Source of the DNA: Strigamia acuminata
Taxonomy: Eukaryota; Arthropoda; Chilopoda; Geophilomorpha; Linotaeniidae
Direction: 5' to 3'
Length of the DNA stretch: 64,000 nt
Assembly: GCA_949358305.1 (NCBI GenBank)
Contig: OX442314.1
Span: 1,395,887-1,459,886, forward strand
A program made the position numbers and the translations under genes. The notes below the pieces were generated by a model. The model ran no database searches. It saw only the letters and a list, made by a program, of their open reading frames with translations, and was not told the origin of the DNA. Positions 21,155-57,722 of the stretch are shown here, one piece after another (positions within the stretch are counted from its first letter, which is position 1; each line of letters begins with the position of its first letter).

Positions 21155-21282
21155 AGTGCCAGTCACCACATATTCCAACATTTTTACATCTCAAAAGTTA
21201 AAATAATTAAAAACACTTTTCTTAAACAATTCAAATATTAAACATATTTTTCTCAAACAATTCAAATATTTTGTTTTACTAA

Positions 21283-23169: not shown

Positions 23170-23269
23170 CGTTTCTGATTTTGTTTCTCGAAACGGTTCG
23201 TATCAAAAACGTTTTGACTTCTTCGATCGTTTCGTCCCAAATCTCGATATTATCCGCAGTGGAAGCGTG

Positions 23270-23283
23270 CTGGGCCCATAACC
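23270..23283 (-). promoter_or_regulatory. Primer binding site for half initiator-Met tRNA
   Basis: On the minus strand the bases after the 5' LTR read GGTTATGGGCCCAG. This is complementary to the anticodon-loop part of initiator tRNA-Met (CTGGGCCCATAACC), the half-tRNA priming known for copia of Drosophila. Confidence 0.85.
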
Positions 23284-23489
23284 TGTAGTTTTTAGTGTCG
23301 AAGGTTGGGACAATGATAAGACGCGTGGTTAGGTTTAACAGCAAATGATTAACTTTATTCTAATTGCTAACACATTATATACAGGTGCGCTCAACCCTGA
23401 TTGGTTTACGCCAAGTACGTCATCTGGACGTCGTGGGTGCGCAGGTGAAACGTTCACCTGGCGTGAAGACTGGGCACTCAAAACCAACA
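23284..23489 (-). repeat. 5' LTR of the copia element
   Basis: 206 bases, partner of 20940-21145. The single clear difference is a T for C in AAATGATTAAC. Confidence 0.92.
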
Positions 23490-35139: not shown

Positions 35140-36896
35140 TGTGATGATTACAAATCCGTATTTATCAATGTTCACAATAGATGGCGCTGTTTACCAAACG
35201 CGCGTAATTCAAACTCGATAAAACTAAAAAAGGTGTGATAAATAATTATTTAGACACGGTGAATAAAAATATAACTATTTTATTCGACATAAATTAAGTA
35301 TTATTTACTTGACAAGTTGATTCTATCGAATCAATATCCACGCTACTTACCTGTCGAAGGGAACCAACTGGACCCTTCCGGACCCCAACTGGGCCCATCT
35401 GGACATAGTCATATATTAGGTCCGGACTAGTGACCCACGAATCCGCCGATTCGTACGCTGATTGGCTGTCGCCAATTTAGTAGTTCTACAGAACTATATA
35501 AGCTCCAGTTTCTCACCCACTAACCCCCCTGGCTTGATAACTGAACTTGTATATTGTCTGTAGTTGAATTGTTATCGTTTGATTTCATTATTCTCTATCG
35601 ACACATCAGGCCACCTCAGCTCTCCACAGTTAGTATTCATTACTATTTGTTATTGCTGTTGTAGGGCTATTTCGGGAAGGCTAACTCCGGTAATAGACAT
35701 GCATTCGCATGAAATGGCCCCGTAACGTTAGCCAGCTGTTCTACGGGACAGTAGGACTTCGTACGGTGGCTTAATATAACGGTCGTATACAGTACGACCT
35801 TGCTAAATGAAAGTAGGTCCCTCAGCTAACTGGCCACAGTCCGCTGCAGGATGGTTGTTGTAAACAGCCCACGCAGGTTCCCGTCTTTCTACGATTGGTC
35901 CTTCCGCTCGTTAAAAGTCGGTAAAGGCCTAATACACAGGTAACACGCCGGGTTGGTAGCCCGTGAGTAATATCTAAAGATGTTGCGATAAATAACTACC
36001 TGGATAATGGTAATCCAACGGCAGTGGCCGATTAATATTTTACCCGGTGCTCGATCTGCTGATCCCGTCATCGTAAGGCATGCTGGCGGATGGAGGAGTC
36101 AAATCCTCCCGCGATGGTTCTCCCGACCGTCGTGACGGTCCCCGCCCCATCGTACCCTCCGGGTTAGTAACCCGTGAACAGGAGTTGAACAACACTGTGC
36201 TAAACAAATTACTCGGGCATTGGTAATCCTGTATTGGCAATATCTTTTAAACCCGGTAAGTCCATAGAAATGTTTACCTGGTGGTTGGTACCACCGATAG
36301 CGAACTAAAGCGTACAATTAAATACTCGGCGCCTGATCACGAGATCTTGTCGTCGTAAGGCATGCTGGCGGATGGAGTCTCAACAACTCCCGCGACGTTC
36401 TCTCAATTGTCGTGACGGTCCCCGCCCAATTAATATTTATATAACAATTCATTTGTTGTATTATTTTAATCACTTGACTTTTATTCATTTGAAACAATGG
36501 AATATTCTGCCGAATATTCCTGTTTATGCGTAGGACTCTTCGCATATTTAGATAAACGATGCTGCGGACCAAATACGTCTCCGTAGCGATATTTGTGACG
36601 ATGCCGCAAGTCAGCCGTATCCCTCTGGCTTCGCCCGGATCCTCAACCAGTTGATGCCGCCGTTTACACGCGTCAAGAACCCACCATTTTGTTATTGTTA
36701 TCATTCAGTAATAAATATGTTATGTCACACTAAAAACTGTAAGTTATTTCTGCTCAGCCATGAATTCCTATTTTTACACAGACTTCTGTAAGCTTATCTC
36801 GGTTAGGTTGTTGCTACTCCTAGCAACGTCTTGTTTAAACCGATTGTTTACTTATTTTAAATGGCTATTAAATCAGCCAAAAGTAGAATCGTCACA
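35140..36896 (+). repeat. 3' LTR of the gypsy element
   Basis: 1757 bases, identical to the 5' LTR except for about three transitions (in GTTATCGTTTG, CCGCTGCAGG and GTTTACTTATT). It is followed by the GAGT duplication. Confidence 0.94.
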
Positions 36897-38916: not shown

Positions 38917-39313
38917 TCAGTACTTCAAAACCGAATTCTTAGCTTTAAATGAAATGTAATACAAGTAGATATCTTGTAATAGTTGTGGGATGGCAAGAAT
39001 AGAAAGACCAATCATTAGTGCAAAAGCGTTTCCAATATCGCAGAACAGTGCAGTGATAGCATAGGAACGAATTTCAGTGTAATTTTCTATTATATTATTC
39101 ATGGGAGCTATGCCGAGAAAGTTGATAGGAATAGTTTCATTATGTTGGTACGTAACAGTGATTTCGTAAACTTGTTCTTCGCACGGTGGATGACAATCAC
39201 AATCTTTCTTTAAATCAGTTTGCAGAGATATCTTTACAAATGATGACATTGAAGTTTTAGCATCTTCAGCATTGGCGCATGGGGTCAAGGTGGTCTCGTC
39301 CATGAATGGCAGT
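38917..39313 (-). CDS. Gene B exon 12: TM2 of module 2 and C-terminus
   Basis: After a CTGTTAG acceptor it reads LPFMDETTLTPC, a CDCHPPC motif, NNIIENYTEIRSYAITALFC, then TM2 with G-L-S at the filter position and a 20-residue tail. It is clearly homologous to gene A exon 11. Confidence 0.88.
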
Positions 39314-42300
39314 CTAACAGAAAAAACCAAAGTTCTAGGAGTTATCTTGAAATTTACTGTTATGTATGAATTATGATGTAATTTTTACGTTCATTTTCAA
39401 GCTAAAATACATGATTTTCGATGTTAGCTGAAAAATCGATGTTTTTTGTCTGAAAATCAACGTTTTAGCCCAATAACAGAGCTTTTAGGCCAAAAATCGA
39501 CATTTTCTTCTAAATAACGTCGCGCGATGATTATTGGTCTATAAAAAGTTTATTTTCGGGCTAAAAACATGGTTTGAGGCTACAAGCATCGATTGTCGGG
39601 CTAAAACCATCTGTTTTTGAGCTAAAAGATCTAAAGTAACCTAGCGGTCGCATCACAGCCGCTTGATGGCGCCACCCTTGTGTACTACGTGAAACGATTG
39701 CCATGAGAACAACGGGAAATGGGGAGAGTGCCGCCTCTTATACTATTAAATGGCTTTCAGCCAATGGGAATGCTGTGTGTCACATTAGCCAATAGAAGGA
39801 TTGCCACACTTGCATTGAAACAGGCTTTAGTAACTTTGAAGGCCCTGATATCAGTAACTGTAGCTTGTACTCTTTTTAACGAATCGCAAGGGAGTGGAAA
39901 AATCGATTCGTTATAACGAGAATTCGTTAAAACGAATTAGCTGAAAAAAATAAAATTTCATCATGAACAACATTATTTATTCAAAATATCATGTTAATTT
40001 TATCCCAATTCTTAAAAATTGTTGAAATTGTAAAACGGGTCAAATTAAACTCAACTGCTACAATTGATAGCTTCTTGCCATTGTCAATGGCATTAAAAAT
40101 GTTCAACTTGTTCTGAATAAAAATTTCCTTTCGTATGGCAGCCATTTTAAAACAGAAAATTTTTCATTTTTTTAAAATGTGTTCCTAACATGGGCATAGG
40201 ATGTTGTGAGTTACCTATGTGATCAGTTTTGAAAATTCGTTATAACAAGGGCTTGTGGGTATTACAGTGTATGTGAAAACTTGTTTCTTACAACGAATAA
40301 TTGGTAATATTGAAATTTGTTATAACGAATAATTCGTTATATTGAAATTTGTTATAACAAATAATTGGTTATATTGAAATTCGTTATATTGAAATTTGTT
40401 ATAACGAATAATTCGTTATATTGAAATTCGTTACCGGTATAACGAAAATATTTAACATGGTGTTCTATGGCTGGCCAACCAAGTCATTCTTAACAATTCG
40501 TTCTTTCGATAATTTGTTATATCGTGATTCATTATGAAGAGTTTTGACTGTACTACTAAGGTATGCAGTGTTGTATCGAACTAGAACTAATAGTTCGCGT
40601 TCGCGAACTTAGTTCGTAGTTCGCGAACTAAGAACTGTGGTGATTCCGAATCACCTGAAGATAAATTGATAAGATTTATCGTGTTGATGAATCCGACCGC
40701 CAGGAGCGCTACTAGAAATAGACTAGATTGACTAGTCTCGCATTTCTGCGGATCTGAATAATCAGAATAATTTATATATGACGTCACTTCCGGTCAGTAT
40801 ATAAGACCGAGGCTTGACCGGAAATGACACTACAGTTACCAATCTCAGCAAGAGCACCATTTTCCTCACCTTTCAGGCCGTTTCATCGGATTGATCGAGG
40901 ACCGGTGCCCGCTGATAAAATCAACTGTAAGCAACAAGCCGCATTTATTTAACGTGGCCAATCCACGTTAGAATAAATATCCGAATCTATCGTTTAATTC
41001 GCACGAAGCGAATTCCCGCGTGTTTGTTCGAAAACACGTGTCAACCGAACATAATTTCGGGACTAATCCACGATCGATACGAATCGCCAATCGATCGCCG
41101 AAGAAAATCACGTACGCCACGTGTTCCGCAAGACGTATTCCACACGAAACGGATCTCGTTTAGTTTGGGCTCACCGAACGCATTGGCGAAAGAATTCTGC
41201 GCACCACGCGTACGGAACAAGACGGATTCAGTTTGGATTCAACCTAACACTTTGGCGGTAATTAACACGCGCGCCACGCGTCCCAAACGAAGTAGGCCTC
41301 GTTTGATTTCACATCCAAACTGCTAAGCGAATTGAGACTGACTCGATTCGCGAAGTGTAAAAAATATAACCCTAGACAACAACAGAAGCCACGTGTAAGT
41401 CTAAACAATTGAGGGCTAATTGTTTAGCAACAACTCGTATTCGCAACAGGATCCGAGACCATCAATCATACATTTATCTGACTGTATTAATTATTCCTAA
41501 GTTAATAATAAAGTGTATTGCTTGTCCCGACAAAGTATTTGTATTTCTTAACCACAAAGTCGAATCACGACAGAACGCGAACTAGTTCACCTTTTTTAAA
41601 GAACTTAAAAAACTAACAAAGTTCGTTTTTTTTACGCGAACTACGTTCTAGTTCGTTAACTAGTTCGTTCTTCCGACGTTATATGTCACGGCCAATCACA
41701 GACGATGATTCCATTCGTTTTTAGTTTTAAACAAGTCGAATCATTGAAAAGTGTTCGTTTCTTTCATTTGACTTGCCGGGAAGTCGACTGTTAAGTATCG
41801 GCGGTGCTTTTGCGCGTGTCGCTTGTTGCGACCGTGCGGCTTGCCGAAGAAAACTTGTCATTGTTCCGGGTAAGAAATGGTGTTTCCGTTCGATTTTTCA
41901 GGTACTAGAATGATTTGTGGTAATTTTCCACTCATTGCGAACCCAATTCATCGATTTAACGTTGTTTTTCGCCAAAAAAGGTTGATTTTTGCAGCAAAAT
42001 TTCGGAAAATTTCGGAAAAAACTCAATTTTTCTGGTAAATATGTTTCGTCGAAGGATTTCTATAATTGTAACCATAATTTTTAAATAAAAACATGTCATT
42101 TCGCTATAAAACGTTCGGTTGTTTTCGATTTCTCAAAAATTCGGGATTTTCTTGTTTTCATGGTAAAAAAATATCCATTTTTGGTCGAATTTATTTCCTG
42201 TAAACACTAATAATTTAATAATTTTTACAGTAAATTAATGTCTTATTCCAGTATAAAATGGTGTAAATAAAAATTTGAATTCACAAAAAAAAAGTTTGTA

Positions 42301-45300
42301 AAGTGAACTGAACTAGAACTGAACTAGAACTGAACTAGAACTGAACTAGAACTTAGTTCACTTTGAGATTTCGGGGTGAACGGGAACTAGAACTAGTTCA
42401 GTAAATTGAAAATGGTGATGAACGAGAACTAGAACTAGTTCGCGATTTAGTGAACTAGATACAACACTGAAGGTATGTAACTTGTATTGCAAGAGCACTA
42501 CCACCTCATACCTGCAAGTCAGAGATTCACGAAACTTTTTTGTATAGCAATTGTTGTGGCATTTTTTGTATTCATTTTTTCCCAAACATGGACGTAATTT
42601 TGCGTTGAATCTGATATTCTACAAATATGATTGTACAGTAATGAGCTGATATTTAAATACTTACACTTGGAGTACTTAGTTGTTGATTTTCTAAATCCTA
42701 CTTACATTAAACGACTTAAAATAGGCCATTGTATAAGAGGTACCCAATATATTAATCTGTCTACTGAGAATTGAGGCAATTTGAGCGCCTTCTGGTCTTA
42801 TATAAAGCTAAAAAAAAATGTTAGAATCATGGTTTAAAATATTAACTACCTGACAGAAATGGTGTCACATTCTTGCTGCAAGAACAATATACCGAATTTG
42901 ACCATTTCTAAAAATTTTGTGAAATTCTCAAATATACAGTATTACAGTAATTTCAATATGAAATTATTTTATCTCAGTACAGCCCTAATTATTTTGAACA
43001 CCTTTCTAAATCTCACTTCCATCATTTGTTGCGACCTGCAGTGTGTAATGATTGATCCAAATTTGAAAATTTTAAATGTTTTGATTATTCCTCATTTTTT
43101 TTAGAGCATGTTTCTACCTCTTAAAATCTATTTTAATTTATTGGATTATATATTATTGACATGCCATTAAAAGTGAAAAGAACCAGTTATAGTGGCTCGC
43201 CCTAAAATTCGCATCAATACACGATGATGATTATTAATAATTTTTATATACAGTACAGTAGGCGCATTCGAAAAGTCATTTGAACTAAACGACCAGTGTA
43301 ACTGGTAGTATAAATGTCAAGTTAAACGACCCAATTTTCGAGTGTAAATAAATTAGCCCAAATGCGGCCGAACATCGGCTGCATTCAATAGATTAAAGTC
43401 TGCCAAATACGATCACACAAATGCGGCCGAACAACAGCCGCATTCGATCGCACAAACGTAAATCATTGAAACCGATCTAACGAAAATCCAAGATGGCTGC
43501 CAGCAAGACCCGAATTGAATGAGAAAACTCGTTGAACAGAGATTTAAACGTAGCTTGCAGGTAGTTTCCGTTTAACCAGTTAACACGACATTTACGCGAA
43601 TTAATTCGTGAAAATGAGTGTAAACACATTTACACTCGTTTTGATGACTTGTGGACAAAAAAACTTCCCTGCAGTTTAGCTGTTTTAAGTTCATCTACCA
43701 GGTAGCATAAAAATCCATTGAGATTTAATGACATCAATGGTGACCCCGGTCTCTTGTCTTGCCCTAACAACAGTATTAAAAGATAAGCTGGCCAAACAAT
43801 GATGTCATTGGTTGGATTTTATACAAGAACAGCCAAAAAACAGCGAAGTACGACTGTACATACCGTACTGCCTCATTTAAACGCCCGGATTCATTCGGAC
43901 GCCGGGCCCTTATAACGCCGGGCAGTCGTACACACAAAAGGTTATAGACGCCAGCCCCGTATTAACGCCGGGTTTCAAATTAGCGCCGGGCAAACGGGGA
44001 ATGGCCAATTACGGCTACAAAACGTTTCGGAAGTGCTGCTCAAAAACGCTGCTGCAATTTTTGGCACTTCAAATCCGGGTGCCTTTGCTGTTTCTGATCA
44101 CTTTTTTACTTAATGGGATGTGTAGATGATTGCAAAATATAAAAATAAAAATTTTTTTCAAAAAAAATTTTTCATTTGCTATTTTGTTTTTCCGAAAATT
44201 TATTTTGGACTATTTTTCTGGTTAAACGCCTGGTTCGAATAAACGCCTGGTTTTAAATTACCGCCTGGCGGGTTGGCCCAAAAACATTAAACGCCCGGGC
44301 GTTTAAATGAGGCAGTATGGTAAGCCTAATGTCCAATTATGCAAACAAATCGGTTTTATAAGCACTCATGTCTCCAGATTAATCATGATATCTTATTACC
44401 CTGCTTTAAACCCTATGCCAATGTCCATGGGTTTACCAGCTTGTTGGAATTTCAGTCAAACAACATTTACTGGCATGATGATGAAATTTTTTTTTAAATT
44501 AAAAAAGCCCAGATGAATAATTATGTAGGAATGTAAGCATTAAATAGGAGTTTTCTTGATATTCTGAAGGGTATTACTACTATTTGAGTCAATTTATAGG
44601 AATTGAACGCACCTGTTGAAAAAATTTCACACTCACTTACATTGGCATGCCGGTGAAAACGGGGTTTATCAGCATGCTGGTAAAACTCGCACTTTACCGG
44701 CATGCGGCTTAAAGTGGGGTAATAGGGAAATTGGTGTTCTATACTGTATACAAGAGATGAGTATTGTGTACCCGTACCCGTAACCATTACCCTACCCGCC
44801 TAGAACCGGGTACGCGCTGGTTACATGGTGCTAACGTCGTAAATTAAATATGTACGATGTACGTACTGTGTATTTACAATGTTAGCACCACTTTGAGAAT
44901 TGAACACATCAACACAACAAGCATGCACATGCAGTGTCTTCCTCGTCGTCGTCGCCCAAGCCCCATATTGTTAATGCTTTTAAGGTATGGGTACGGGTAA
45001 GTAGGGTGTGGGGATGCCCGGGTACGGGCGGGTACGGGTACAGAATTTTATTGCAGGCGGGTAACGAGTACGGTTTTAACGCCAATGCTCATCTCTGCTG
45101 TACACGTTTCACATGCAGAAAATGGGATTTGGTGGGTAAATTTGGCATCAAAACAATAGGTGTAGACTGTGGAATCGTGTCTTTGTACAGTATTACCTGA
45201 TAAAGATGGTCAGTACAATTACTTAACGGTACTGTTTTCCGTAAATTAAAGAAAATAGTTGTAACGTGTCCAGCATATTTTGCAGGTGCTATAAGAAAAA

Positions 45301-48300
45301 ATCAAATTTATGTAAATTTGGGTAGAATACATTTTTCTTTTCAATTCCAAAAGTATATTTTTCTATTGACCAGTTCAATTTCGCTCTAGGGAACTTGTTC
45401 AGTGTTTACCAATAACAGATTTCCAGCATGTTCCTGTGTGCATTTTCAAAGGAGTCCAGTCTGCTGTGAAGTCTAATCCAAACACCTGTAAAACAAAACA
45501 CTTTGTATTTTATTTTAGGCCGGATACCTACTGTAGAAGAAACGTGGCAACTTGCAACCAACTAACCAAAATATATAATTATATGCTATTCTAACTAGTC
45601 CATACCTTTCCAGCAATTTTGATTAATACTTTATCTACTATCGGTGTTTGATATCTCCACAAATCTTCTAATGACAAATTTTGCGATCCGAATTTTTCGT
45701 TCATTAAATCCAGAAAATTGATCTTGCAGGATTCTTTGCGTTTTTTCTTGGCATGTGTTTGCATGTAGTTTGCCATTATAGGTCCAGTGCCACAGGCAAT
45801 TAAATTAGGCCAGTGTATTGTGTCATTTTCTTGGATGGTTACTACAAGTCTTGTTGGTTCACTCAAGAAAAGTGAAATTTTGCATTTTGATACGTAAGAA
45901 GCCAATGCAACAGATGTGCACAGTATGATCGTGTAAAATATTTGATACACAATGTTGGTTCCAACTGATCCTGATTTACCAGTCGTACTCCTTTGGCGCA
46001 TCAACGCGTTCACTTGTTTTGTGATTCGTTGTTTGGTTTTTATATCAAGACGAACAGGTTTTATGTATTTGTAAGCAATAAATCCTGCTAATTGTACAAT
46101 TTTGATCAAAGATAAGAGAGAGTAGCCTAATGAGAATCCCAAATTTCCACCAAAGTCTATCAATAAGTCTGAAAAGCCGTATATGAATTCCTCGGTCATT
46201 TGTACATATACAGGTTCTGGTTCTCTAAATCTCCAAACCAATAGATCACGATCAGGTTCTACAAAATAATGATAAGGAGAAATGTATAATAGTACATATA
46301 AAAAACATATACGGAATTTATGACATAGCATTAAGTTTACTAATTTATATTTATATGTGTAGGAACATCATTTCACTACATTTAGTGTAAGGTAAAAGTG
46401 GGTTGCGGTTGAAGTTTTTAGTTATAGTTATAAAATTTGAGTCAACCTTATACTAGTACATGTCACGTGATTACCGAATTAGTAATGTCTCATTCGCATA
46501 AAAATAGGGATTTCCTGTTTTTAACTGTTGCAATACAATGCTGCAACTTTATTATACTGTATGTGAATTTAAAGGGATCAAAAGCACAAACAATTAGATA
46601 AACTATAACATGTGCGGGGTGGCGCTACTGTCGCGAAATAATATATCGCAAATCCAGAAATCGCGATTTTCGCAATTACAAATTTTGAAAAAATGTATCG
46701 CGAATGACATATATCGCGAATGAAATATATCGCGAACAAGATATATCGCGAATAATCAAATCGCGAAAAGAAGAAAACGCAAAAAAAAGAAAACGCAAAA
46801 AAAAAGAAAATTTGAACGATAAAAAGAAAAAGAAAACGCGAAAAAAAAGAAAATTCGAACGAGAAAAAGAGAAAAAAAACGCGAAAAAAAAGAAAATTCC
46901 AACGAGAGAAAGAAAAAGAAGACGCGAAAAAAAAGAAAATTCCAACGAGAAAAAGAAAAAGAAAACGCGAAAAAAAAGAAAATTCCAACGAGAAAAAGAA
47001 AAAGAAAACGCGAAAAAAGGAAACCATCCATTACTTCGAGACCAGCAGTCAAAGTCAAAGTCGCCGAGCAGGTCGGCTAGCAACGTCAACTCTCGCTCGC
47101 GCCGCTTATTTGGCGTTTTCGTTATGTGCAAGCTCGAGAATTAAACGCCTTCGCCGCCGAGCCAAAATAAATCGGAATGTCGAATAAAACAGTCTACGTT
47201 CACATGATCACCGGAAATTCGACTTACTCACCACTGGCGGTGCCGAGCGTCGAAGCAAACGTTGCGGATGGTTGTTTGGAGTTCAGGTTTTTGTTTTTAT
47301 TCCAATTTCACGTTTTCTTTTTTTTTTTCGTGATTTGTTTTTTCACGATACACAAATTCGCGTTCCATCAGATTCGCGTTTTGCGATTCACGGATTCGCG
47401 GTACGTCAGATTCGCGTTATGCTGTCTAACAGCAAATAAAATCGCGATTTCTAGATTTGCGATTCCTTTTTTCGCGACTTCAAATGCGCCCCACATGTGC
47501 TCCCCCATGAATGAAGCGGAAAATTCAAAATGGTGGCGAAAGAGGTCAATGCTAATCCAAATTTCTAGTCAGTGACGTAAACGGATTCCTTTACTTTAAC
47601 GACGCCCGTTTTAGCGACGCCGTGTTTAAGCTGCTTAGATTCAGCTAGGTTAGGTTAGTTTAGGTCAGGTCAGGTTAGGTTAGGTTAGGTTAGGTTAGTT
47701 TAGGTCAGGTTAGGTTAGTTTGGTTAGGTTAGGTTAGTTTGGTTAGGTTAGGTTAGTTTGGTTACGTTAGGTCAGGCTACGTTAGGTTTAATTAGGTTAA
47801 GAAACGGCATTGCTAAAACGGGCATCGCTAAAGTGAAGTATACAGGGTGAATAAAAAGTCTGGTTCTCTACTAAATATTTCTGAAAGTGCTGACAATGCA
47901 TCTAATTCAATGATGGCAAAGTATTAAAGTTGGTTGGGACAATCTTTTGATAACTCGAAATTTGACCTTGAGATGTTCCTTCAAGGTTATTTGAAAATTA
48001 TCTCAGAAATCGTTAGAGATAGACAGAAATTTCCAATTGTAAACTTGTAGAGCAACATATGTTTAGTCTAAAAATGACTAATTCTCAAATCTTTTGTACT
48101 AAAAAATTTTAAGAAAATCGCAATTCCAGTTATCATTTCAACAACTTTATGGCATTGTCTACCCCAGTGGTTTCCAAACATTTTTGGTTCAAGGCGCCCC
48201 TGTAGGTGGTTCAGCGTTCCTGTAGGCCCGCCGTGGTACTCAGTTTGGGAACCACTGGTCTACCCAATGACTTGAAGATGCTCGTTTTGACAAATAGGAA

Positions 48301-51300
48301 TCGTTTCATCAGAGACAAAGCGATAGCTGAATGTGGATAGTGATCTCGAGGAACTCCTCTCACTATAGGGGATTTGGACTTTTTTAAGAAAAAATGTCGA
48401 AAATATTTTAAATTTTGTTCAATTTTCAACAAAAAATTCAAAATTTTTATTAAATGTATTTGTAAAGATTCGGGGATTCGGAACGGGATTCGAAAGCCCA
48501 TGTCAGAGATTTGGTTGAATGTCGTACTCCCTGATTGAAACTATTAATTGTATTTGTGATTTTATAACTAGTATTTATGATTGCATGTTGAACTGTTGAT
48601 GTACAATTGTTGATAAAAAAATTGTCGCCTTATCCCAAAGGACAATTGTGGCCATGGTATGTTTTGACTTTTGTAACTTTTTATCAGAGTCAGCAAGGGA
48701 GGAGAAGACCTAATTTCTGCAAGCCTTCTGTTATGTTTAGGGAAAAAAAGGCGACAATTCTTTTGTCCACAATTGTACAATTAGTTGCATTATGTAAATG
48801 GGTAAAACTCACCTTTGAAAGTTTGCTGTAGAACAAATAAAGCACGTGTTTGACAAGGTCTTAAGCATTTACAGTCCGTTGTTGCCGATGTAGACACTGC
48901 AGCTTTAAATGAATCTTCAAATACTTCACTAACAAGTGTTTTGTTTGTTTCCAGACTACAGTCTAATTGTTTTTTTGTACTCATCATGTATGGCAATCTA
49001 ACAACAGTTTGCTTTTACTCATCAAAGAACTCTTTAACCCTCGGAGGCATAAGGGTAAAATGTGCTGTTTTGGTATATGGCATTCCGGATTTATGGACAA
49101 TTTTCAGGTCCATTGGTCAAAGCACAATTTAGTTTTTTTGTAGTTCTCTACTAATTTTATAGAGGGTGCAATATGTTAAGGCAATAATAATGAAATTTGA
49201 ACCATCTGGTGGTGGTTTTAAACACTACTGCAAAAAGGCTGCGAACTGGAGCGCTCTTTACTAAGCTTGTTAACGGATCGGATTGGATCGGATTTCTGGC
49301 CAATCCGCATCCGATCCGAAATAGTGCGGATCGGAAAATGCGGATCCGATCCGATCCGCATTCCCAGATCAGCCAATCCGATCCGATCCGATCCGATCCG
49401 CAATCAATCCGCGGATTGCGGATCAATCCGCAGATTTTTTCGTCGATACCCGATGAAAAACGGGGTCCGACGCCCTACTGTCGAATGTCGCGGTCGTCGA
49501 TTATCGGGCGTCAGCCGTTGACTGTCGGGCGTTAGCTGTCGATTGTCGGCCGGACGTTTTCGGATCTCGCGCCCGTCAACCGTCGATTGGCGGGCGGACG
49601 TTTTTGGCTCTCGTGCCCGTCGATTGGCGTAAATAACAGTTTTTTAAATTATATAACATTATTTTATTTACGAATTATAAAATCATCAAATAAAATAACA
49701 TTAAACATTAAATGACGGGCGCGAGAGCCAAAAACGTCCGCCCGACAATCGACGGTTGACGGGCGCGAGAGCCAAAAACGTCCGCCCGACAATAGACGGT
49801 TGACGGGCGCGAGAGCCGAAAACGTCCGGCCGACAATCGACAGCTAACGCCCGACAATTTGATTGTTTTTTTCCGAATAACAACGGAATTACAAGTGTTT
49901 ACAGTACAATTAACAATAACTTATTGCTAATTGTATTGTAAACAGTTGTAATTCCGTTGTTATTCGAAAAAAAAACACGTTAAATTTATTTTTTTTTAAA
50001 TGGCGGATCGCTCGGATCAATCCGCGGATTCGCCCAATCCGATCCACGGATTGATGGCTCGGATTGGTCACCCATCCGATCCGATCCGATCCGCAGGCGG
50101 ATCAGTCAAAAAACCATCCGCATCCGATCCGAGCGGATCAAATCCGCGGATTGGCGGATCGGATCGGATCGGGTTAACAAGCTTACTCTTTACTGAACCA
50201 GCAAAGCCAGTTTAAAAGTTATGCTGGAGCTTTAAGGGGCTGAAAATTTCAATTCAGAATAAATAATTAAATAAACAACTAATACATACAACTTATTTCA
50301 TATGAATCAAAGTCTGACACTACAGGGTGTCCTAAAAGTCTGTACCCCTCCAAATATTTCCTGAGCAATTGCATCTAGGTCAACTTTGATGAAGCGATCG
50401 TATAGGAAGTTGGGTGCGAGCAATCCAATGACGTCATCTGATTTGACCTTGAAGGCCATTTTCAAGGTCATACACGTGCTAACTTCTAAACCAATCAGGT
50501 TAGAGCAAAAAAGTCAATTACAAAGTTGTAGAGCACCATCAAATTAGTACTATCCAATTGATGTTAGTCATCTTAAGTGAAATGTTTTCTTTTTAAAAAG
50601 GAGACAAATCAGCTGAAATAAAGCCAGCCATTGTGACAAAACTTAAATTGCTATTAGAAAAATACTGAATTACTTAAATAAACGTATTCAAATGTGCATT
50701 ATTATGCAAGTAAACAAGAAAAACCACTGCTTTTTTTTAATGCCTCAATAATTATTTTATCACAAGAATAAAAAATTTCACTTTGCGGATTTTTTTTCTG
50801 ATTTGCCTCCTTTTTATGAAGAAAACATTTAACTTAAGATGACTAAAATAAGTTGGATAGTACTAATTTGATGGTGCTCTACAACTTTGTAATTGGAAAT
50901 TTTGCTGTATCTTAAACGGTTTAAAAGTTAGAAAGTGAATGACCTTGAAAATGACCTTCAAGGTAAAATTTGATAACGTCATTGGATTGCTCTCACCCAA
51001 CTTCCAATATGATCGCTTCATCAAAATTGGCCTAGATGCAATTGCTCAGGAAATATTTGGAGGGGTACAGACTTTTAGAACACCCTGTATAAACAAAAAC
51101 ACAAATTTTCTGCAAAAAAAAATGGATAGGGAAAATATTTTCCCATTAAAGAAACAGCTTGTCCATAAATCCGTATACCCTTATGCCTCCGAGGGTCAAA
51201 GTAAAATAGTACGGAGTAATAAATAACAATCTCAAAAGTTTAGTTCTGTCGTTTCTGCGTGCTTTACTTCTTGAAACCACTACTCGTTTCTTGTGGTCAA

Positions 51301-54300
51301 TATATTGCATAGTATAATTGACGGTGATCACAAGTAGCCGATTAGCCAGGTTCTGAAGTTAGGGGGAGCGAACACGTAAAAAGGCACCATAACACACAAT
51401 TTAAAAAGGCAGCATGACTTTTTTGATAAATTTCCAATGAAATTTGAGAATTTTCAATAAAATTTCCAGCAAAATTTGACAATTTTTAAGATAAACTTTT
51501 TATGCATTTTTATCAAATTTGATAATTGTTAGATAATATTGAACGAAATTTTATAAATAGCGGTGCCTGGTGTGCCCTTCGTCTCTTTTGGGTTTTGAGT
51601 TTTTTTAGGGAGTTTATTGGAGTTTTTGCGGGGACGGATGATGTGTGGGGTTTGAGGCGGGAAATTGTTGACTTGTTGCTGTCAAGAGTTTTGCAATTTC
51701 TGTCGAGAAGAAAAAGTTGAAATTCGGTTCCCAAAAAAATTTTTAAAATCTTTTTAGATGAAATAATTAAATTTTGACTAAAATTGAACATAAACTGACC
51801 AGAAACTGACCGAAAACCAAATATAAATGATTATTTTTCAAATTATCGAAACCCCTTTTTTGAAAAAAATGCAAAAAAAAATTTTCAAAGGAAAAAACTA
51901 ATGAAAACACATTTTTGACCTCAAACAGACCCCGAACTGACCAGAAAGCCAAAAACAATTACTCCGTAATTTTTTTTAATTTTCAAAACCCCATCCAATA
52001 AATCAAAACAAGCTGGGATTTGTAATGCAGGGAAGCATTACATATTAGACTTCTAAACCCTGTCCTTTTGTCCCTAAATAAAACACCGAAATAAAAGAAA
52101 ATAAAGTAATTTTAAAAAAAAAATTTTTTTTGCCAATATAAAGCAACAACAAACAAAATCCCACCAAAATTTGATATGATATGCTGCGGAATTGTTGCAT
52201 CTGGGGTTTGCTACAATCGGGAAATAAATCGCGCGGAAAACGTATCGCAACGTATGGCTTACGGCAGGGTTTCCCAAACGGTGAGGCGCGCCTCACTGGT
52301 GGGGCGCGAGCTGATTATTGGTGGGGCGCACCCATTATACATGCTTAAATAAAACAAGCTTATTTTGCAAACTTTTGTAAATTTTTAACCAAAAGTATAT
52401 AAAATTATACAAAGTTTTATGCAAAATTATATAAAAATTAGTATATTTTTAAAAATTTAATGCACTGGTAGATGAAGTGGGGCGCAGAAGATCGCCCTGC
52501 TTAAAAAGTGGGGCGCGATGCTAAAAAGTTTGGGAACCCCTGGCTTACGGGATCCGCCAGGTGGCGCTAGTACAATGTTACAACTTCCGATGCGCGGACG
52601 GAAGTAGTATTATTTGACGGCTAAAAGTGTACAAAATCGTGTTTATTAATTCAACTGGAGGTTGGAAAATTTCGAAAAGTTCCTAGGATACCAATACAGG
52701 TACGCTGAATTTATTGCCGTTATCTGTTTATCTCCACCTGCTATAGATTTTGAGATATGGATGCGTACGGACAGACAGACAGACGGACAGAACCGTTTCC
52801 TGAGACTCTCTAAACATCAGGTTTAGAAGTCTAAAAACACCAAATTTATGAGTCATAATTTGTATTACTTCATTTCGTCATTGTGTCTTTTCATCGCCAG
52901 GGTTTTTTCATCTCGTCGCCCTTCATTTTGTCGCCGTGTTTTTTCGTCGCCAAAAATGGCGACGAAGTGAAGGGCGACGAATTGAAAGGACATAATCAGA
53001 AACGAACCACAAGAACTTTTCGTATTATTTGTAATGTGGATAGTGTCTCACTTGCAATGTCTCTCCTCATCCTTTCTTACCAAACAATCTTCATAGCATT
53101 TGATGATTTGATGTTTGTTGGGCTCGCAATAAGGGTGTCTTGTGGCCAAAAAATTGTACTGTAAATTGAAATTTAGTTTAATTTAGACATCAGTCAACTC
53201 TGTAATTTGTGACAGTTTGTTTACTTTACGTAAACTGAGCTGCATGTCAGCTCTAATTCCCGCTTGTACAGCACGTGTATCACGGAAAGGTTTTATGTAA
53301 TCATAAATGAACGTCTAAAATATATTTTTTTTACAAAGCATTAAAATCAGAATCGACATTTGTTTTTAAATTTATGTTTCAATTATTGTATAGATTCTTA
53401 CGGCAACAATAGATAGCTGGCATGTACCATTCTTTCTAAATCTTAGGCTGAAAGTTGTCCTTTCATCTGCTGGTATATCTTAGAAGGAAAATAAATATGG
53501 AATAATTTGACATAATACGACAACATATTGAGTTAATACATTCGGTGCATTCAATCTCAAAATGTAAAAAAAAAACGATTCTAAAAACTTGATTATAGAA
53601 TTGGTTTTTAACTTTGACCGAGTTAAATTTAACTCGTTCAAAGTAAAACTTAAGCATGCGTAGTTCTGATTTAAGTGTTCTGGAATCAAGTTCTCTTGAT
53701 CCCAGAACTAGTTCTGAACAGAAAATGGTATCCAGGAAAAAAAACAAAAAAATACCGGCTGTATTCGGTGGGATGAATGCGGCCTAAATATTTTTGAATT
53801 TGTTATTTGTATATGAACTATAAGCTGTTGTATTGACCTCAGCAGAGCTGTTTGGATGGCATTTGTCCGGTTCACACAGCACTAACTAACTCTACAGGTT
53901 TATTTACCAAAATCAAGAATCAGTGAATTTCCGTTTATCAGGTTTTCCTGGGTCATCCGAACGCCATCTCCTTTTAGTGATAATATATTTCCATTGTTTA
54001 ATGTGATATTGTAATAAATGTTTTTGCCCTGAAAATGAATTATTTAAAGTTTAGTTAGTTGACATGTAAATTTTTTAAATTTATTTTATGGGGCTTTGGT
54101 CATATCGTATATGGCCGTGGTGGTTCCCAAACTTTGGAGCGCCGTGACTGGCCTACAGGGACAGCGCGAGATTTGAACAGATGGGTAGTGTACAACAGGT
54201 TCATCTGTCTAACTAATTGATGCCATAAATAAATTATCTACGATTTTTGTGATAATTTTTTATGAATAATCGCACCAGGTCACTGCAACTGTCAGATGTG

Positions 54301-57300
54301 TGTAGGCTAGTTCACATGCATGCGTTGCTGCATCAGCTTCAATGACAAGCATGAAGCACAATGCGCAAGCATATGCCATCGCGCGTTATCAATGCTGCAA
54401 CGCAAAACCAGGGCTGGATTCGGTACAAATTTAGTACCGGGAAATCTGGATGGGTTGGGCCACAGGGAAAGGCTACGGGGGGCTGTAACGCACAAATTCA
54501 CAACACATTTTGGCCAACGCACATTGGTGATGCAAACGTAACGGAAATGTAACGGTAATGTAACGATAACGGTAACTTAGCTAACTAAAATGTAACGGTA
54601 ACGGTTGGTAACTAGTTACTTTTTTTGCCAAGTAACGGTTGGTAACTATACTCTGTCTGACCTTAAGAATAAAGAAAAATTCCCCCCTTTTGAGGCCTTT
54701 TCACTGGTGTAGTGATACGGAAAAGTAGAGCAATATACCAGGTTTTAATAAATGTTTTAATAAATGTTATTTTGTATTTTGCCATGGTATTTTGTATTTT
54801 GCTGTGGTATTTTGTATTTTGCTATGGTATTTTGTATTTTGCTATGGTATTTTGTATTTTGCTATGGTATTTTGTATTTTGCTATGGTATTTTGTATTTT
54901 GCTATGGTATTTTGTATTTTGCTATGGTATTTTGTATTTTGCTATGGTATTTTGGGACAGTATTTTGGTACTGTATTTTGGTACCGGTACGGTATTTTAG
55001 TACGGTATTTTGGTATGGTATGTTGGTACCATTGGAACCAAATATGTTTTGGTACAAACATATTTGGTTCCAATGTGTTGTGACCTCAAATGTTCCTTTT
55101 ATTTGGAATATTTGGAGTATAAGAAATTAATAATTTAATCTATTTAATGTGTTAAATAAATTGTTTTACATTCCCTTTAATTATATGGAAATACTAGAAA
55201 TTGGTAATTTGAGGAATCAATTTATTTTAGTGTTTTTAATGAATTATTTGTTAAAATAATTACATATTTTTGCTTGCTTGTGCAAATAAAATACTCATTT
55301 TATTTGCAATTGCCAAGTGCTTTCGGCTGTTAAACAGAAGCCGTTAGGACTGCTATGGCAACCTAACTGCCAAATTGGGGGGTTGCTATGGCCAGCTCCT
55401 AATTTGCACCGTTGCTGGGCACGAAGTGTGCCAGGTGCATGCCACGCATGCGCACTCGGCCGATTTTCCGGCCAAAGTTTGAGTAATAAATTCGTTTATT
55501 ACTCACTCTTTGCCTCCTCCTCACACCGTTCACACCGACACAACTTTGTTCAACCAAACCAACACTGTTTTGTCTGTGATCCGTGAGTAATTGCAAAGTT
55601 TCAACTGATTTGCTTGATGCCAATCCACATCAAGTGACTCCTTCCCGGACGACGAAGTCCGAGCAACCGTTGTTTCCGCCGCCACCCGAAGATAAACGTA
55701 CACACGCCATCGTAGACCGACGCCTGGAAGACGCCAAGCCGACGAGGGACGACGCGCGCCAAGCCGACGAAACCTCGACGCTAGCCACCGACGACGGTAA
55801 TTCGAGTGATATATGTTGAAGACAGACGCCAGCCAGCCGCCGAGTTGACGAGGGACGACGCGCGAAAGCCGACGAAACCTCGTCGCTCGACCTACTGACG
55901 ACGGTAATTTACCGAGAAGAAACGGACCTGAAGACCGAATTCGACAGTGCGAACCACGCCATTGGATTCGTGAGTCTTCAACGGAGAATTTCCCGTTTCC
56001 AATCGAGGGTTCACATCTCGTATTCTCCACTTTGGCCTGGCTATCTAGCTGGCCACGATTCTGGCTCCACAGCCGAATCACTTTGCGAAATCTCACGATT
56101 TCGCGCCCATTTGTGTGCATTTGCACCAATTTTCACGGCGATCCGTTGCCGCCATTTTCCAAACTTATTGTTTCCGCGCGCGCGAACAATTCCATTGTTC
56201 TCGCGCCTTTCTCTTCTTTCCTTGTTTAACTTTAGCAATATTCACTTAATTATTTATTTATCCCTTGTATTCATATTACTCCTTAATTTTAACATTAATA
56301 AAACCATTTTTTAAATTATTTGTTATTATTGCATTTGCTACCAAAAAACCCCTAGACACAAAAACCACAGCCAAAATACCCCTAGACACCAACTTAACTG
56401 CCAAACCCGATAGAAGACCTTTTGCGGCATTCAACTGCTTTCCACAGGTTGAATACCGGGACCTTTTGCATTGAATTAGATTAATATTCTGTGCAATTAT
56501 TATTATCATAATTTTGGGAACATCCAGGAACGCAACAAATGGTACCAACATACTGTAACCAAAATACTGTAACAAAATACCGTACCAAAATACCGTACCG
56601 GTACCAAAATACAGCACCAGAATACTGTCCCAAAATACCACACCAAAATACAAAATACCATACCAAAATACAAAATACCATACCAAAATACAAAATACCA
56701 TACCAAAATACAAAAATAACATACCAAAATACCAAAATACCATTGTATATTTACTTTATTTTAGGATTATCAGGCTTAATAAAACCTGAGTTTTTATTAA
56801 AAGCTGGTGTATTGCTCTACTTTTCCGTATCACTACACTAGTGAAAAGGCCTCAAAAGGTGGGGGATTTTTCTTTATGCTTAAGGTCAGACAGAGTATAG
56901 TTACTTTTTTTGCCAAGTAACGGTAACGGTAACTAGTTACCAAATTCAAGTAACGCACACAACACTACAAACAAATTATTACATTGCAGTTCTTTACGAG
57001 GTACTGTACCTCGTAATGAACTGCAATGTAATGATTTTTTTTTTAATAATAAATGATTAAAAATAGCTTGGTTGGATGGTTGGCAATAGAAAACAATGTT
57101 ATAAAATTTTGATACAACAAACTTTCGTTATAACGAACAGATATTTTGGGTCCTTTGCGATTCGTTATAACGAAGCTCGACTGTATTCAGGTTTTGTGAT
57201 TTTGAAACTTGATCTACAAGAAGAACACAATAATGTAAATACCTTCTTTATGTGCATTGATTGTAGATTCACTGTTAAATTAGATTGCAGCCAGAAACGA

Positions 57301-57722
57301 TTGTAATCGGTAATATTAGTTTCCATATTTATAAGTCCTCGAACTACATTCGAACAGCTTTTAGTCATTCGTTCGAATGCGATTAAGCCCGACACTCCGT
57401 ATTGCGCCCAGTACTCACTCAAACCTGGCGTATCCATTGCGGAAAACATTATTTTCGGTAACGAAGTCGTATGAATTTCCATGAATTCAACTTCCACTTT
57501 GATCGGTTCATCAAGATAAAAGATTATTCTGTCTGCCGTTTGGTAGCAGCAGATGCCGATACAAGCAAGGAAAGTAACTAACCAAATTACACGAGAACAA
57601 TATTTTTCTTTGTTCAAAACATTGTCTAGAACTTTCAATTCTTCCTTATCGATCAATGATGCTTGTATTTCTCGTTTCACATAAAGTTTAATATTTTTCA
57701 TTCGTTCAGCAACTGTATTCAT
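38917..57722 (-). CDS. Gene B: complete two-module DEG/ENaC-family cation channel
   Basis: Twelve exons on the minus strand: 57243-57722, 53908-54028, 53402-53478, 53225-53314, 53052-53158, 48813-48997, 45606-46258, 45410-45485, 45233-45288, 42706-42807, 42512-42618, 38917-39313. Every junction has GT/AG borders and matching phase, and the total is 2451 bases, exactly 817 codons. Predicted layout of 816 residues: N-terminus; TM1 at about 46-66 (VIWLVTFLACIGICCYQ); ectodomain 1; TM2 at about 384-415 (DFGGNLGFSLGYSLLSL); basic linker of about 40; TM1 at about 456-477; ectodomain 2; TM2 at about 768-802 (DIGNAFALMIGLSILAI); short tail. Each module is near 400 residues, shorter than usual DEG/ENaC subunits (about 500-700). 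The family's conserved cytoplasmic His-Gly before TM1 is not seen in either module. The start ATG follows a possible acceptor, so a 5' UTR exon may exist. Ion selectivity, gating and assembly are unknown. Confidence 0.88.
39420..39625. repeat. Degenerate repeat of GGCTAAAAATCGAT type
   Basis: Loose repetition of AAAATCGATGTTTT, GGCCAAAAATCGACATTTT and GGGCTAAAA words, a decayed relative of the array at 23490-23676. Confidence 0.55.
39862..40550. mobile_element. Probable TA-type element rich in TTCGTTATAACGAA
   Basis: The right end reads CATTATGAAGAGTTTTGACTG followed by TA. The interior repeats ATTCGTTATAACGAATAA many times. The left border is set only by a weak match to the right end. A related end lies at 57183 (CTTCGTTATAACG, then CGACTG and TA). 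Confidence 0.4.
40566..42469. mobile_element. Non-autonomous hAT element carrying a solo LTR
   Basis: Starts CAGTGTTGTATC, ends GATACAACACTG, flanked by exact 8-base duplications AAGGTATG (40558-40565, 42470-42477). Subterminal regions repeat GAACTAGAACT and TTCGCGAACTA. There is no transposase. A 937-base solo LTR is nested inside. Confidence 0.88.
40636..41572 (+). repeat. Solo LTR nested in the hAT element
   Basis: Begins TGTGGTGATTCC, ends CGAATCACGACA, flanked by a 4-base duplication GAAC. It holds GTCAGTATATAAGACC (TATA at 40799) and AATAAAGTG near 41506. The TGTGRTGATT start and 4-base duplication resemble the gypsy LTR at 25409, so it may be a related family. Confidence 0.8.
42512..42618 (-). 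CDS. Gene B exon 11: cysteine-rich ectodomain segment of module 2
   Basis: 107 bases after ATATTTGTAG, donor GTATGA. It codes for LRPCLGKNEYKKCHNNCYTK and ends L-T-C-R. The pattern matches gene A exon 10. The hAT element starts only about 40 bases past the donor. Confidence 0.85.
42706..42807 (-). CDS. Gene B exon 10: ectodomain segment of module 2
   Basis: 102 bases after a T-run acceptor, donor GTAAGT. It codes for LYIRPEGAQIASILSRQINI and continues to YFKSFN. Same length and phases as gene A exon 9. Confidence 0.82.
42808..43255. other. Intron DNA of gene B
   Basis: AT-rich; a Leu/Ile-rich plus-strand frame at about 42859-43104 has no support. Nothing else is seen. Confidence 0.5.
43256..43655. 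mobile_element. Truncated copy of the TAGGCGCATTCGAAAAGT element
   Basis: Starts CAGTAGGCGCATTCGAAAAG. It includes GTGTAAACACATTTACACTC and AATGCGGCCGAACATCGGC words shared with 24715-25408. The right terminus breaks off after GACTTGTGGAC. Confidence 0.65.
43863..44320. mobile_element. TA-flanked MITE, CCGTACTGCC termini
   Basis: Ends CCGTACTGCCTCATTTAAAC and the inverted GTTTAAATGAGGCAGTATGG, flanked by TA. GCGCCGGGC, AACGCCGGG and GCCCGG words crowd the arms. Confidence 0.85.
44752..45097. mobile_element. hAT-type MITE
   Basis: Inverted ends AAGAGATGAGTATTG and (complement) CAGAGATGAGCATTGG, flanked by CTGTATAC and CTGTACAC (7 of 8). Subterminal GGGTACGGG/CCCGTACCC words are inverted between the two halves. 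Confidence 0.75.
45233..45288 (-). CDS. Gene B exon 9: small ectodomain exon of module 2
   Basis: 56 bases after TTTTTCTTATAG. It codes for PAKYAGHVTTIFFNLRKT, matching gene A exon 8 in length, phase and the K-Y-A-G word. Confidence 0.8.
45410..45485 (-). CDS. Gene B exon 8: ectodomain segment of module 2
   Basis: 76 bases after GTTTTACAG, donor GTAAAC. It codes for VFGLDFTADWTPLKMHTGTC then WKSVI. The MHTGTC word is shared with gene A exon 7. Confidence 0.78.
45606..46258 (-). CDS. Gene B exon 7: junction exon joining module 1 TM2 to module 2 TM1
   Basis: 653 bases, open throughout, after TATTTTGTAG and before GTATGG. Order: pre-TM2 region (MTEEFIYGFSDLLIDFGG), TM2 with G-Y-S at the filter position, a linker of about 40 residues rich in Lys/Arg (IKTKQRITKQVNALMRQR), TM1 (IVYQIFYTIILCTSVALASY), then FLSEPTRLVVTIQEN and WPNLIACG, the post-TM1 family motif. 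This exon is physical proof that the two modules share one chain. Confidence 0.9.
46259..46607. other. Intron DNA of gene B
   Basis: No exon or repeat border is seen. Confidence 0.45.
46616..47492. mobile_element. Unclassified DNA element with GGGG...CCCC ends and 8-bp duplication
   Basis: Exact 8-base flanks ACATGTGC (46608-46615, 47493-47500). The left end reads GGGGTGGCGC, the right end GCGCCCC. Inner arms share GTCGCGAA, TCGCAAATC and GAAATCGCGATTTT in inverted order. The middle is a run of A-rich units (GAAAAAGAAAACGCGAAAAA) that keeps long lysine- or phenylalanine-rich frames open; these are not genes. The terminus does not fit hAT; a Merlin-like or unknown family is possible. Confidence 0.72.
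47640..47800. repeat. Interstitial TTAGG-like repeat
   Basis: Runs of GGTTAGGTTAGGTTAGGTTA alternate with TTAGTTTAGGTCAGG variants. The unit is the arthropod-type telomere repeat, here degenerate and inside a gene B intron. Confidence 0.8.
47848..48156. mobile_element. Fragment of a TACAGGGTG-type element
   Basis: Starts TACAGGGTGAATAAAAAGTC and continues with AAATATTTCTGAAAGTGCTG and GACCTTGAGATGTTCCTTCA, resembling the left arm of 50323-51087. No right end is seen. Confidence 0.5.
48165..48257. mobile_element. 93-bp hAT-type MITE
   Basis: Starts CAGTGGTTTCCAAAC, ends GTTTGGGAACCACTG, flanked by exact 8-base duplications GTCTACCC (48157-48164, 48258-48265). A relic of the same family is near 54120 (GTGGTTCCCAAACTTTGGAG). 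Confidence 0.9.
48266..48812. other. Intron DNA of gene B
   Basis: No gene or repeat border is recognised. Confidence 0.45.
48813..48997 (-). CDS. Gene B exon 6: ectodomain segment of module 1 before TM2
   Basis: 185 bases after CTGTTGTTAG, donor GTGAGT. It codes for LPYMMSTKKQLDC then CKCLRPC, homologous to the first part of gene A exon 6; here an intron follows that gene A lacks. Confidence 0.85.
49262..50185. mobile_element. Foldback element with GATCCG-rich arms
   Basis: Inverted ends TAAGCTTGTTAAC with 8-base flanks CTCTTTAC (49254-49261, 50186-50193). Arms are filled with GGATCGGATC/GATCCGATCC repeats. Inside, GGCGGACGTTTTTGGCTCTC-type units on the left face GAGAGCCAAAAACGTCCGCC units on the right, and a further inverted pair (AACAACGGAATTACAA / TTGTAATTCCGTTGTT) sits at 49877-49973. 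There is no coding capacity. Confidence 0.82.
50323..51087. mobile_element. Long-arm TA-flanked MITE (CAGGGTGTCC termini)
   Basis: Starts CAGGGTGTCCTAAAAGTCTG, ends CAGACTTTTAGAACACCCTG, flanked by TA. The inverted arms extend about 250-300 bases (GGTCAACTTTGATGAAGCGA and its counterpart). Of Tc1/mariner/IS630 type by termini. Confidence 0.85.
51208..52264. other. Intron DNA, AT-rich, no gene seen
   Basis: Contains runs such as AAAATTTGACAATTTTTAAG. TTAGACTTCTAAACCCTG near 52045 faces an inverted ATCAGGTTTAGAAGTCTAAA near 52816, suggesting an older element around the hAT MITE; borders are unclear. Confidence 0.45.
52265..52542. mobile_element. hAT-type MITE (GGGGCGCG family)
   Basis: Starts CAGGGTTTCCCAAAC, ends GTTTGGGAACCCCTG, flanked by exact 8-base duplications GCTTACGG (52257-52264, 52543-52550). 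GTGGGGCGCG words occur at both sides. Confidence 0.9.
52912..52981. repeat. Hairpin of CGTCGCC type
   Basis: TCGTCGCCCTTCATTTTGTC faces an inverted GGCGACGAAGTGAAGGGCGA across a short loop, just past the donor of gene B exon 5. Probably a small foldback element. Confidence 0.6.
53052..53158 (-). CDS. Gene B exon 5: cysteine-rich ectodomain segment of module 1
   Basis: 107 bases after CAATTTACAG, donor GTGAGA. It codes for YNFLATRHPYCEPNKHQIIK then CYEDCLVRKDEERHCK, matching gene A exon 5. Confidence 0.85.
53225..53314 (-). CDS. Gene B exon 4: ectodomain segment of module 1
   Basis: 90 bases after a TATTTTAG-like acceptor, donor GTAAAC. It codes for TFIYDYIKPFRDTRAVQAGI then RADMQLSLRK. Same length and phases as gene A exon 4. 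Confidence 0.82.
53402..53478 (-). CDS. Gene B exon 3: ectodomain segment of module 1
   Basis: 77 bases after TTCCTTCTAAG, donor GTAAGA. It codes for IPADERTTFSLRFRKNGTCQ then LSIVA. Same length and phases as gene A exon 3. Confidence 0.8.
53908..54028 (-). CDS. Gene B exon 2: ectodomain segment of module 1
   Basis: 121 bases after CATTTTCAG, donor GTAAAT. It codes for GKNIYYNITLNNGNILSLKG and continues to NGNSLILDF. Confidence 0.8.
54786..54955. repeat. 20-bp minisatellite in the left arm
   Basis: Eight to nine copies of GTATTTTGTATTTTGCTATG. The right arm carries the inverse, less regular array (ATACCAAAATACAAAATACC) at about 56640-56720. Open frames here are artefacts. Confidence 0.88.
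55030..55075. repeat. 46-bp perfect palindrome
   Basis: CATTGGAACCAAATATGTTT, TGGTAC in the centre, then the inverted arm. Confidence 0.88.
55318..56537 (+). repeat. Dispersed LTR-like repeat, copy 2
   Basis: Shares with 18770-20316 the ordered words ATGCGCACTCGGCC, CACCGTTCACACCGACACA, TTTTGTCTGTGATCCGTGAG, TTGTTTCCGCCGCCACCCGA, AATAAAACC, CGATAGAAGACC, GGCATTCAACTGCTTTCC and the final CAGGAACGCAACA. The CA end fits an LTR 3' border. The start and any target duplication are unresolved, and no conserved ORF is seen. Confidence 0.5.
57243..57722 (-). CDS. Gene B exon 1: N-terminus and TM1 of module 1
   Basis: Starts MNTVAERMKNIKLYV; TM1 is VIWLVTFLACIGICCYQ; then FYLDEPIKVEVEFMEI and LPKIMFSA, the post-TM1 motif; it ends at donor GTATTT. 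The cytoplasmic stretch is Lys/Glu-rich and lacks the family His-Gly pair. A TA-type element end (CGTTATAACG) lies 60 bases past the donor. Confidence 0.85.

Follow-up and report, generated by a model that had tools for sequence, protein, structure and literature searches.

Two DEG/ENaC channel modules predicted within one chain in a large gene family of the centipede Strigamia acuminata

The subject of this study is a gene of the centipede Strigamia acuminata, here called gene 1, which lies on the minus strand at 57722-38917 of a 64,000-nucleotide stretch of DNA (the window; GCA_949358305.1, contig OX442314.1, positions 1,395,887 to 1,459,886) and encodes two channel modules of the DEG/ENaC type in a single open frame. 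As judged from the sequence, both modules very probably lie in one covalent chain, and the exon joining them recurs throughout the genome. A two-module chain cannot correspond simply to one third of a trimer, and the family therefore poses a clean question of stoichiometry. In the reading that we prefer, to which a probability of about 0.4 is given, the modules are covalently joined and one double chain would form a three-part pore together with one single-module subunit.

A single unbroken exon of gene 1 (exon 7, 46258-45606), termed the fused exon below, encodes in one frame the second transmembrane helix (TM2) of module 1, an inter-module linker and the first transmembrane helix (TM1) of module 2. 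A first-pass annotation had proposed two complete modules in one polypeptide, and the presence of this TM2 and TM1 in the same stop-free exon supports that proposal. Its 12 phase-agreeing exons were borne out as well, with AG/GT borders throughout and a stop-free frame, and so was its TM1-ectodomain-TM2-linker-TM1-ectodomain-TM2 layout, to which both the frame and the four membrane helices seen in the hydropathy plot (in the order TM1, TM2, TM1, TM2) correspond. The joined exons gave a chain of 828 residues, so that the proposed length of 816 was slightly short. Two separate matches to the ASC domain (PF00858) had been expected and were obtained, with 46.3 and 47.8 bits for the halves and 83.2 bits for the whole chain against a curated cut-off of 23.6 bits. 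No HG motif was found before the module-1 TM1 of gene 1 or within its linker. An N-terminal HG motif is common in DEG/ENaC proteins but not universal, and it was not taken as defining because it is also absent from the stretch 5-86 of PDPNaC1, a channel of the centipede Scolopendra that is compared below.

All exons of gene 1 lie on the minus strand. Exon 1 (57243-57722) carries the start codon, the N terminus, the module-1 TM1 (about 57590-57534) and the start of ectodomain 1, and is followed by exon 2 (53908-54028, ectodomain 1), exon 3 (53402-53478), exon 4 (53225-53314), exon 5 (53052-53158) and exon 6 (48813-48997), which encodes the Cys-rich end of ectodomain 1. The fused exon (45606-46258) contributes module-1 TM2, the basic and stop-free linker of 45 residues (45945-46079, residues 414-458), module-2 TM1 and the start of ectodomain 2, while exons 8 (45410-45485), 9 (45197-45288), 10 (42706-42807) and 11 (42512-42618) precede exon 12 (38917-39313) with the end of ectodomain 2, module-2 TM2 (about 39039-38962) and the stop codon. 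Intron 1 contains a long inverted repeat (54642-56904; longest arms 158 nucleotides at 92%), partly built of a GTATTTTGGTATG-like minisatellite, in the manner of a foldback-type element.

When TM1 and TM2 profiles were scanned over the open frames of the window, three TM1 and four TM2 sites were detected, all belonging to gene 1 and to a second gene described below, and no alternative TM1 for module 2 or TM2 for module 1 of gene 1 was present in these frames. The linker frame stays open in divergent copies, and in 20 aligned proteins of the family the linker measures 33 to 58 residues and carries a net charge that averages +8.0 (range 1 to 13); such a short basic segment agrees with the expectation for a cytosolic linker. 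After the bases of 15 linkers had been shuffled, the frame was open in 6% of trials, compared with fused exons that are open at 416 of 431 places in the genome. This argues against the highly improbable alternative that alternative splicing, internal starts or cleavage turn these exons into separate single-module products. Donor-like sites in the linkers of genes 1 and 2 and a Met in 14 of the 20 linkers would suit such products, but the other six linkers have no Met, and the donor-like sites of the two genes differ in place, with gene 2 scoring 5.5 versus 8.0. A structure prediction for the fused exon, with 282 residues of gene 2 aligned with the exon of gene 1 (two sequences) as input, was too poor to use (mean predicted local distance difference test score, pLDDT, 36.2; predicted template modelling score, pTM, 0.25; no residue above 70 in pLDDT); helices appeared in this unusable model where TM2 and TM1 are expected.

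The second gene of the window, gene 2, lies on the minus strand at 20893-2448, where 11 exons encode 711 residues in the same layout. The proteins of genes 1 and 2 are co-linear over 705 columns with 35% identity (E = 4e-137), and the halves of gene 2 matched PF00858 with 46.7 and 46.9 bits, both above 23.6. Its fused exon (9006-9852), equivalent to exons 6 and 7 of gene 1 and likewise unbroken, contains TM2, the linker (about 9482-9342) and TM1. It is preceded by exon 1 (20771-20893, 3' part only, with a GC donor), exon 2 (17361-17487), exon 3 (17058-17134), exon 4 (16279-16368) and exon 5 (16115-16218), and followed by exons at 8288-8378, 8140-8228, 7729-7830 and 6097-6203 and by the last exon (2448-2826) with module-2 TM2 and the stop codon. 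The first TM1 of gene 2, expected in the 5' part of exon 1, was found neither upstream within the window by TM1 profile nor among 150 scored genome matches of exon 1. The 3' part of this exon is adjoined by a copia-type element on the minus strand (20939-23489), which comprises a gag open reading frame at 21283-23202 (gag and Pol_BBD domains by Pfam) and long terminal repeats at 20939-21145 and 23283-23489 that are 99.5% alike; no target-site duplication was seen at the element. The first-pass annotation had recognized a two-module gene, which stands, but had missed this second copy, the spread of the family through the genome, the intron plan common to the modules and the single-module relatives in centipedes.

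The genome to which the window belongs (237,517,015 bases in 157 contigs) was searched with the fused exon of gene 1; the search yielded 967 candidates, of which 150 were scored as matches, and 149 of these extended from TM2 to TM1. Three further fused-exon queries from divergent copies returned 147, 139 and 145 matches, and the 581 matches of all four queries merged into 444 distinct places, 13 of which did not span TM2 to TM1. At least 431 distinct places therefore had a single match that covered both TM2 and TM1; 416 of these never showed a stop, and contigs C1-C11 carry 424 of the 431. Since 311 of these places were each detected by a single query, the count falls short of saturation, while a few equal-scoring places may be assembly duplicates. 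The places are clustered, with 244 of 418 neighbor distances within 50 kb, and in an array at C1:27.39-27.52 Mb matches to exons 1, 7 and 12 alternate (9, 10 and 10 matches, read by eye). Matches to the last exon had a fused exon no more than 20 kb upstream in 122 of 150 cases (median 2,865 bp). The family consists of large tandem arrays of divergent and mostly intact genes, as would be asked of a chemoreceptor-like repertoire.

Gene models were obtained for 20 sampled regions (L009-L028) with a spliced aligner that, as a control, recovered exons 6 to 11 of gene 2 from the gene 1 protein with one donor wrong and inexact outer ends; where the ectodomain is variable, the models are uncertain as to small exons. 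All 20 models hold parts of both modules, 15 run from start to stop without an internal stop, and 19 keep the fused exon undivided, the exception being L015, where it is split in the refined model and whole in the first. For L026, models of single-module genes produced with gene 1 as template were rejected after a closer template had given one fused exon. Seven further regions taken from last-exon matches (L029-L035) comprised four double genes, one apparently single-module locus (L034) and two that could not be assigned (L029 and L031), and the fused exon was in one piece in four of the seven.

These models, together with substitution rates, make it extremely unlikely that the family is an assembly artefact or a collection of pseudogenes. 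Such an origin would find some footing in the equal-scoring places that are perhaps duplicates (C4:3.02-3.05 Mb), in a stop in at least one match at 15 of the 431 places and in the lost 5' end of gene 2, but it is countered by the location of most places on contigs C1-C11, by the start-to-stop models in 15 of the 20 sampled regions and by four diverged pairs with synonymous divergence (dS) near 1. In these pairs the ratio of nonsynonymous to synonymous rates (dN/dS) was 0.28-0.37 in first modules, 0.26-0.34 in second modules and 0.33-0.83 in linkers, so that purifying selection is indicated for both modules. A recent fusion or a prediction error was also considered and rejected, both being at odds with the second gene, with the introns in common and with recurrence at 431 places.

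Conserved residues were read from the alignment of 20 proteins, which contains gene 2 minus its first TM1 and leaves aside L015, L018, L019, L021 and L027 (stop in the model, missing start or short length) as well as L029 and L031 (not assigned), L032 (double) and L034. Twenty ectodomain columns, ten per module, hold Cys in at least 16 of the 20 proteins. The G-x-S motif of TM2 is present in all 20 first modules, and in second modules its Gly is kept in 19 and its Ser in 20. Profile, Cys scaffold and pore motif all mark the two modules as ordinary ones of the DEG/ENaC type. At the position of the lower gate of PDPNaC1, reported as Gly375 (PMC12714832), all 20 first modules have Gly, whereas second modules have Asn (17) or Ser (3). 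The gate Asp, which is retained almost throughout in both modules, is found in 18 of 20 second modules, and the residue before it is Cys in 19 of 20 second modules but Ile (12), Thr (4), Cys (3) or Ser (1) in first modules. The site that differs between modules is presumably the degenerin site, at which bulky residues keep channels in the open state. With gate residues that are module-specific and kept across the 20 aligned proteins, differences between neighboring subunits would have been preserved by evolution.

The introns of all four modules in the window fall in matching columns (within 5) with phases 0, 1, 0, 0 and 2, a match that for gene 1 was equaled by none of 1,000,000 random placements, and this agreement in position and phase points to descent of the modules from one gene plan. 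Each module has the appearance of what was once a single-module gene of six exons. Exons 6 and 7 of gene 1 are separated by an extra phase-1 intron that gene 2 lacks; its presence in the nearer relatives of gene 1 (e.g. L009-L014 and L028) and its absence from the divergent copies L016-L026 suggest that one subclade gained it. Over the C-terminal block, which runs from the Cys-rich region to TM2, the first modules of genes 1 and 2 agree in 70 of 169 columns and the two modules of gene 1 in 33 of 165, which indicates that the double form predates the split of the two genes.

Two trees were computed from this C-terminal block only, which is short, with the Protein Data Bank (PDB) chains represented in part. 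In the tree of 44 sequences all 20 second modules group together (support 97), all 20 first modules group with PDPNaC1 (support 100), which is placed inside them at only 28, and the modules of L034 join the second modules (support 94). A tree of six sequences conflicts with this in placing PDPNaC1 with BRTNaC1, another Scolopendra channel, and the second modules. The union of the second modules on the one hand, and of the first modules with PDPNaC1 on the other, fits one main fusion event, which we regard as probable. In such an event, most likely a single one, the last exon of one tandem single-module gene would have been joined without an intron to the first exon of its neighbor, both genes having the same five introns, and the product would then have multiplied to at least 431 places.

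Single-module relatives seem to exist in the same genome. The locus L034, in which the canonical GG gate motif is found, holds two tandem copies of single-module appearance, each ending in FLKK and a stop. In the second copy the first coding exon contains no ATG, and the aligner could also splice both copies together; the copies are likely single-module as far as their sequence goes. Last exons of this type (1,458 candidates, 150 of them scored) occur in large arrays, chiefly on C10, where apparently single-module DEG/ENaC genes lie at about 2.05-2.99 and 4.6-5.0 Mb, and most of these last exons have open frames that could not accommodate a fused exon. ASC exons of other kinds are also common in the genome (93 matches scored of 2,095 candidates in a profile search that also matched one of 14 control genomes, that of Thermotoga maritima). 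The C10-type genes are possible partners of the double chains.

The assembly puzzle raised in the first-pass annotation, namely two modules per chain against three places per pore, is a real one. Both ends of each module are cytosolic, so that tandem modules fit the membrane, and a covalent link should be no obstacle since engineered ASIC1a concatemers conduct (PMC5449180). One double chain could occupy two of the three places of an ordinary trimeric pore as a fixed pair of module 1 and module 2, the third place being taken by a single-module DEG/ENaC subunit, which would make the pore asymmetric by design. This two-plus-one arrangement is favored, tentatively, because single-module genes are apparently abundant and because the modules differ at the gate in a fixed way. 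Its main competitor, which we hold to be unlikely, consists of three double chains whose first modules form one pore and whose second modules form another, the two being tied by the linkers. Such a twin pore needs no partner, would explain the module-specific divergence at the gate as if each module lined its own pore, and lies within reach of a linker of 33-58 residues by our own estimate, but no twin pore is known to us among DEG/ENaC channels and the apparently single-module subunits of the same genome put a partner on hand. Still less probable is a homotrimeric pore of one module with the other as a tethered non-conducting or regulatory unit. None of the 20 second modules has Gly at the gate position, which could mark such an altered partner, yet module 2 keeps the Ser (20/20) and Gly (19/20) of G-x-S and the gate Asp (18/20), and its constraint in the four diverged pairs matches that of module 1.

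Several observations weigh against the two-plus-one pore of covalent double chains or against the family history on which it draws. The C10-type genes are taken as single-module from one locus (L034), with its exon that contains no ATG, and from open-frame lengths, 28 of 150 last-exon matches had no fused exon found upstream, and four of the 20 models (L015, L019, L021 and L027) begin within ectodomain 1. The linker of gene 1 contains a donor-like site at 45980 that scores within the range of real donors, as well as a Met at residue 440, both of which allow for partial products of this gene. Gene 2, with its first TM1 missing, may be dead at the 5' end. Selection is not strong everywhere, since whole-chain dN/dS reached 0.44-0.78 in seven closer pairs, with up to 0.93 in one module 1; one linker gave 3.26 on a dS of 0.034, that is, on very few silent changes. 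The PDPNaC1 gene, finally, is reported with nine exons and not six (PMC12714832).

The size of the family, its clustering and the reported location of PDPNaC1 in antennal neurons (PMC12714832) suggest sensory receptors. The genes might represent a lineage-specific and probably contact-chemosensory channel repertoire of a blind centipede, a chemosensory role having slightly better than even odds. That a single fusion in a centipede lineage founded more than 400 covalent two-module sensory subunits with asymmetric pores, whether two-plus-one or twin, is a broader proposal that we put forward with reserve. The family size suggests a possibly overlooked repertoire of sensory receptors in an eyeless animal. 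For the related blind geophilomorph Strigamia maritima, photolyase and cryptochrome are reported absent, and its genome paper lists sodium transport among the functions enriched in lineage-specific duplicates (PMC4244043). The photolyase/cryptochrome domain PF03441 was not found in the genome searched here, where a domain split by introns could escape the search; the same search matched seven of 14 control genomes, all seven bacteria or archaea.

In the open-access literature searched, no two-module DEG/ENaC protein was named. Searches of the protein database returned no match at E <= 1, and as no ASC protein of any animal came up, the database is silent on absence. Fused exons scanned against viral and genome contigs found no relative there, and an Rfam scan gave no match above gathering scores.

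Other elements of the window include, on the plus strand at 28769-31834, a pol region that we label gypsy-like, with two open reading frames that encode reverse transcriptase, RNase H and the zinc-binding and core domains of an integrase. On the minus strand, an open frame of 793 residues at 12177-14558 contains a MULE transposase domain and a C-terminal Cys/His pattern that appears RING-like by eye, and two identical open frames of 128 residues (26587-26973 and 36318-36704) form a dispersed repeat. A tandem array at 1257-2288 is open in several frames on both strands and encodes a repeated IIAFPILF-like peptide.

Two modules in one DEG/ENaC chain, and the number of genes, are new to us. Every DEG/ENaC subunit that we know of has one module and forms trimers, although a single module per subunit is not among the sequence features that define the family. 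With more than 400 genes this would be, to our knowledge, the largest set of such channel genes, far above the DEG/ENaC gene numbers familiar to us; nor do we know of a two-plus-one or twin-pore assembly among trimeric channels. Subunits of the pickpocket, ASIC and ENaC families, which comprise tens of genes, share the PF00858 fold, two transmembrane helices per module, the Cys-rich ectodomain and G-x-S, but have one module per chain; a study in Caenorhabditis elegans speaks of screening all 30 (PMC10424705). The top-scoring PDB entry, both for the whole chain (E 1.2e-15) and for module 1 on its own (E 6.2e-11), was BRTNaC1, a broad-range thermal receptor of Scolopendra (8YMR, 8YMW, 8YMX), which likewise has a short module in a chain of 431 residues but differs in having one module per chain and a pore tract that aligns as G-I-C instead of G-x-S; it is described as trimeric (PMC12804983). 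Module 2 alone was best matched by PDPNaC1 (9JF7, E 4.8e-13), the proton-dissociation sodium channel of the same Scolopendra centipede, which has the gate Asp and G-x-S in common with module 2 but is a homotrimer of single modules of 421 residues (PMC12714832). Alignment of gene 1 to these two channels agrees with a pair of membrane helices on either side of a large ectodomain in each module. The engineered ASIC1a concatemers also combine DEG/ENaC modules in one functional chain, yet they hold three modules and are man-made (PMC5449180), whereas the two-module genes described here would be natural concatemers. Among other channels, TPC, Nav and Cav proteins similarly multiply channel modules within one chain, but their repeats sum to a pore symmetry of four, while the two repeats found here misfit a three-fold pore.

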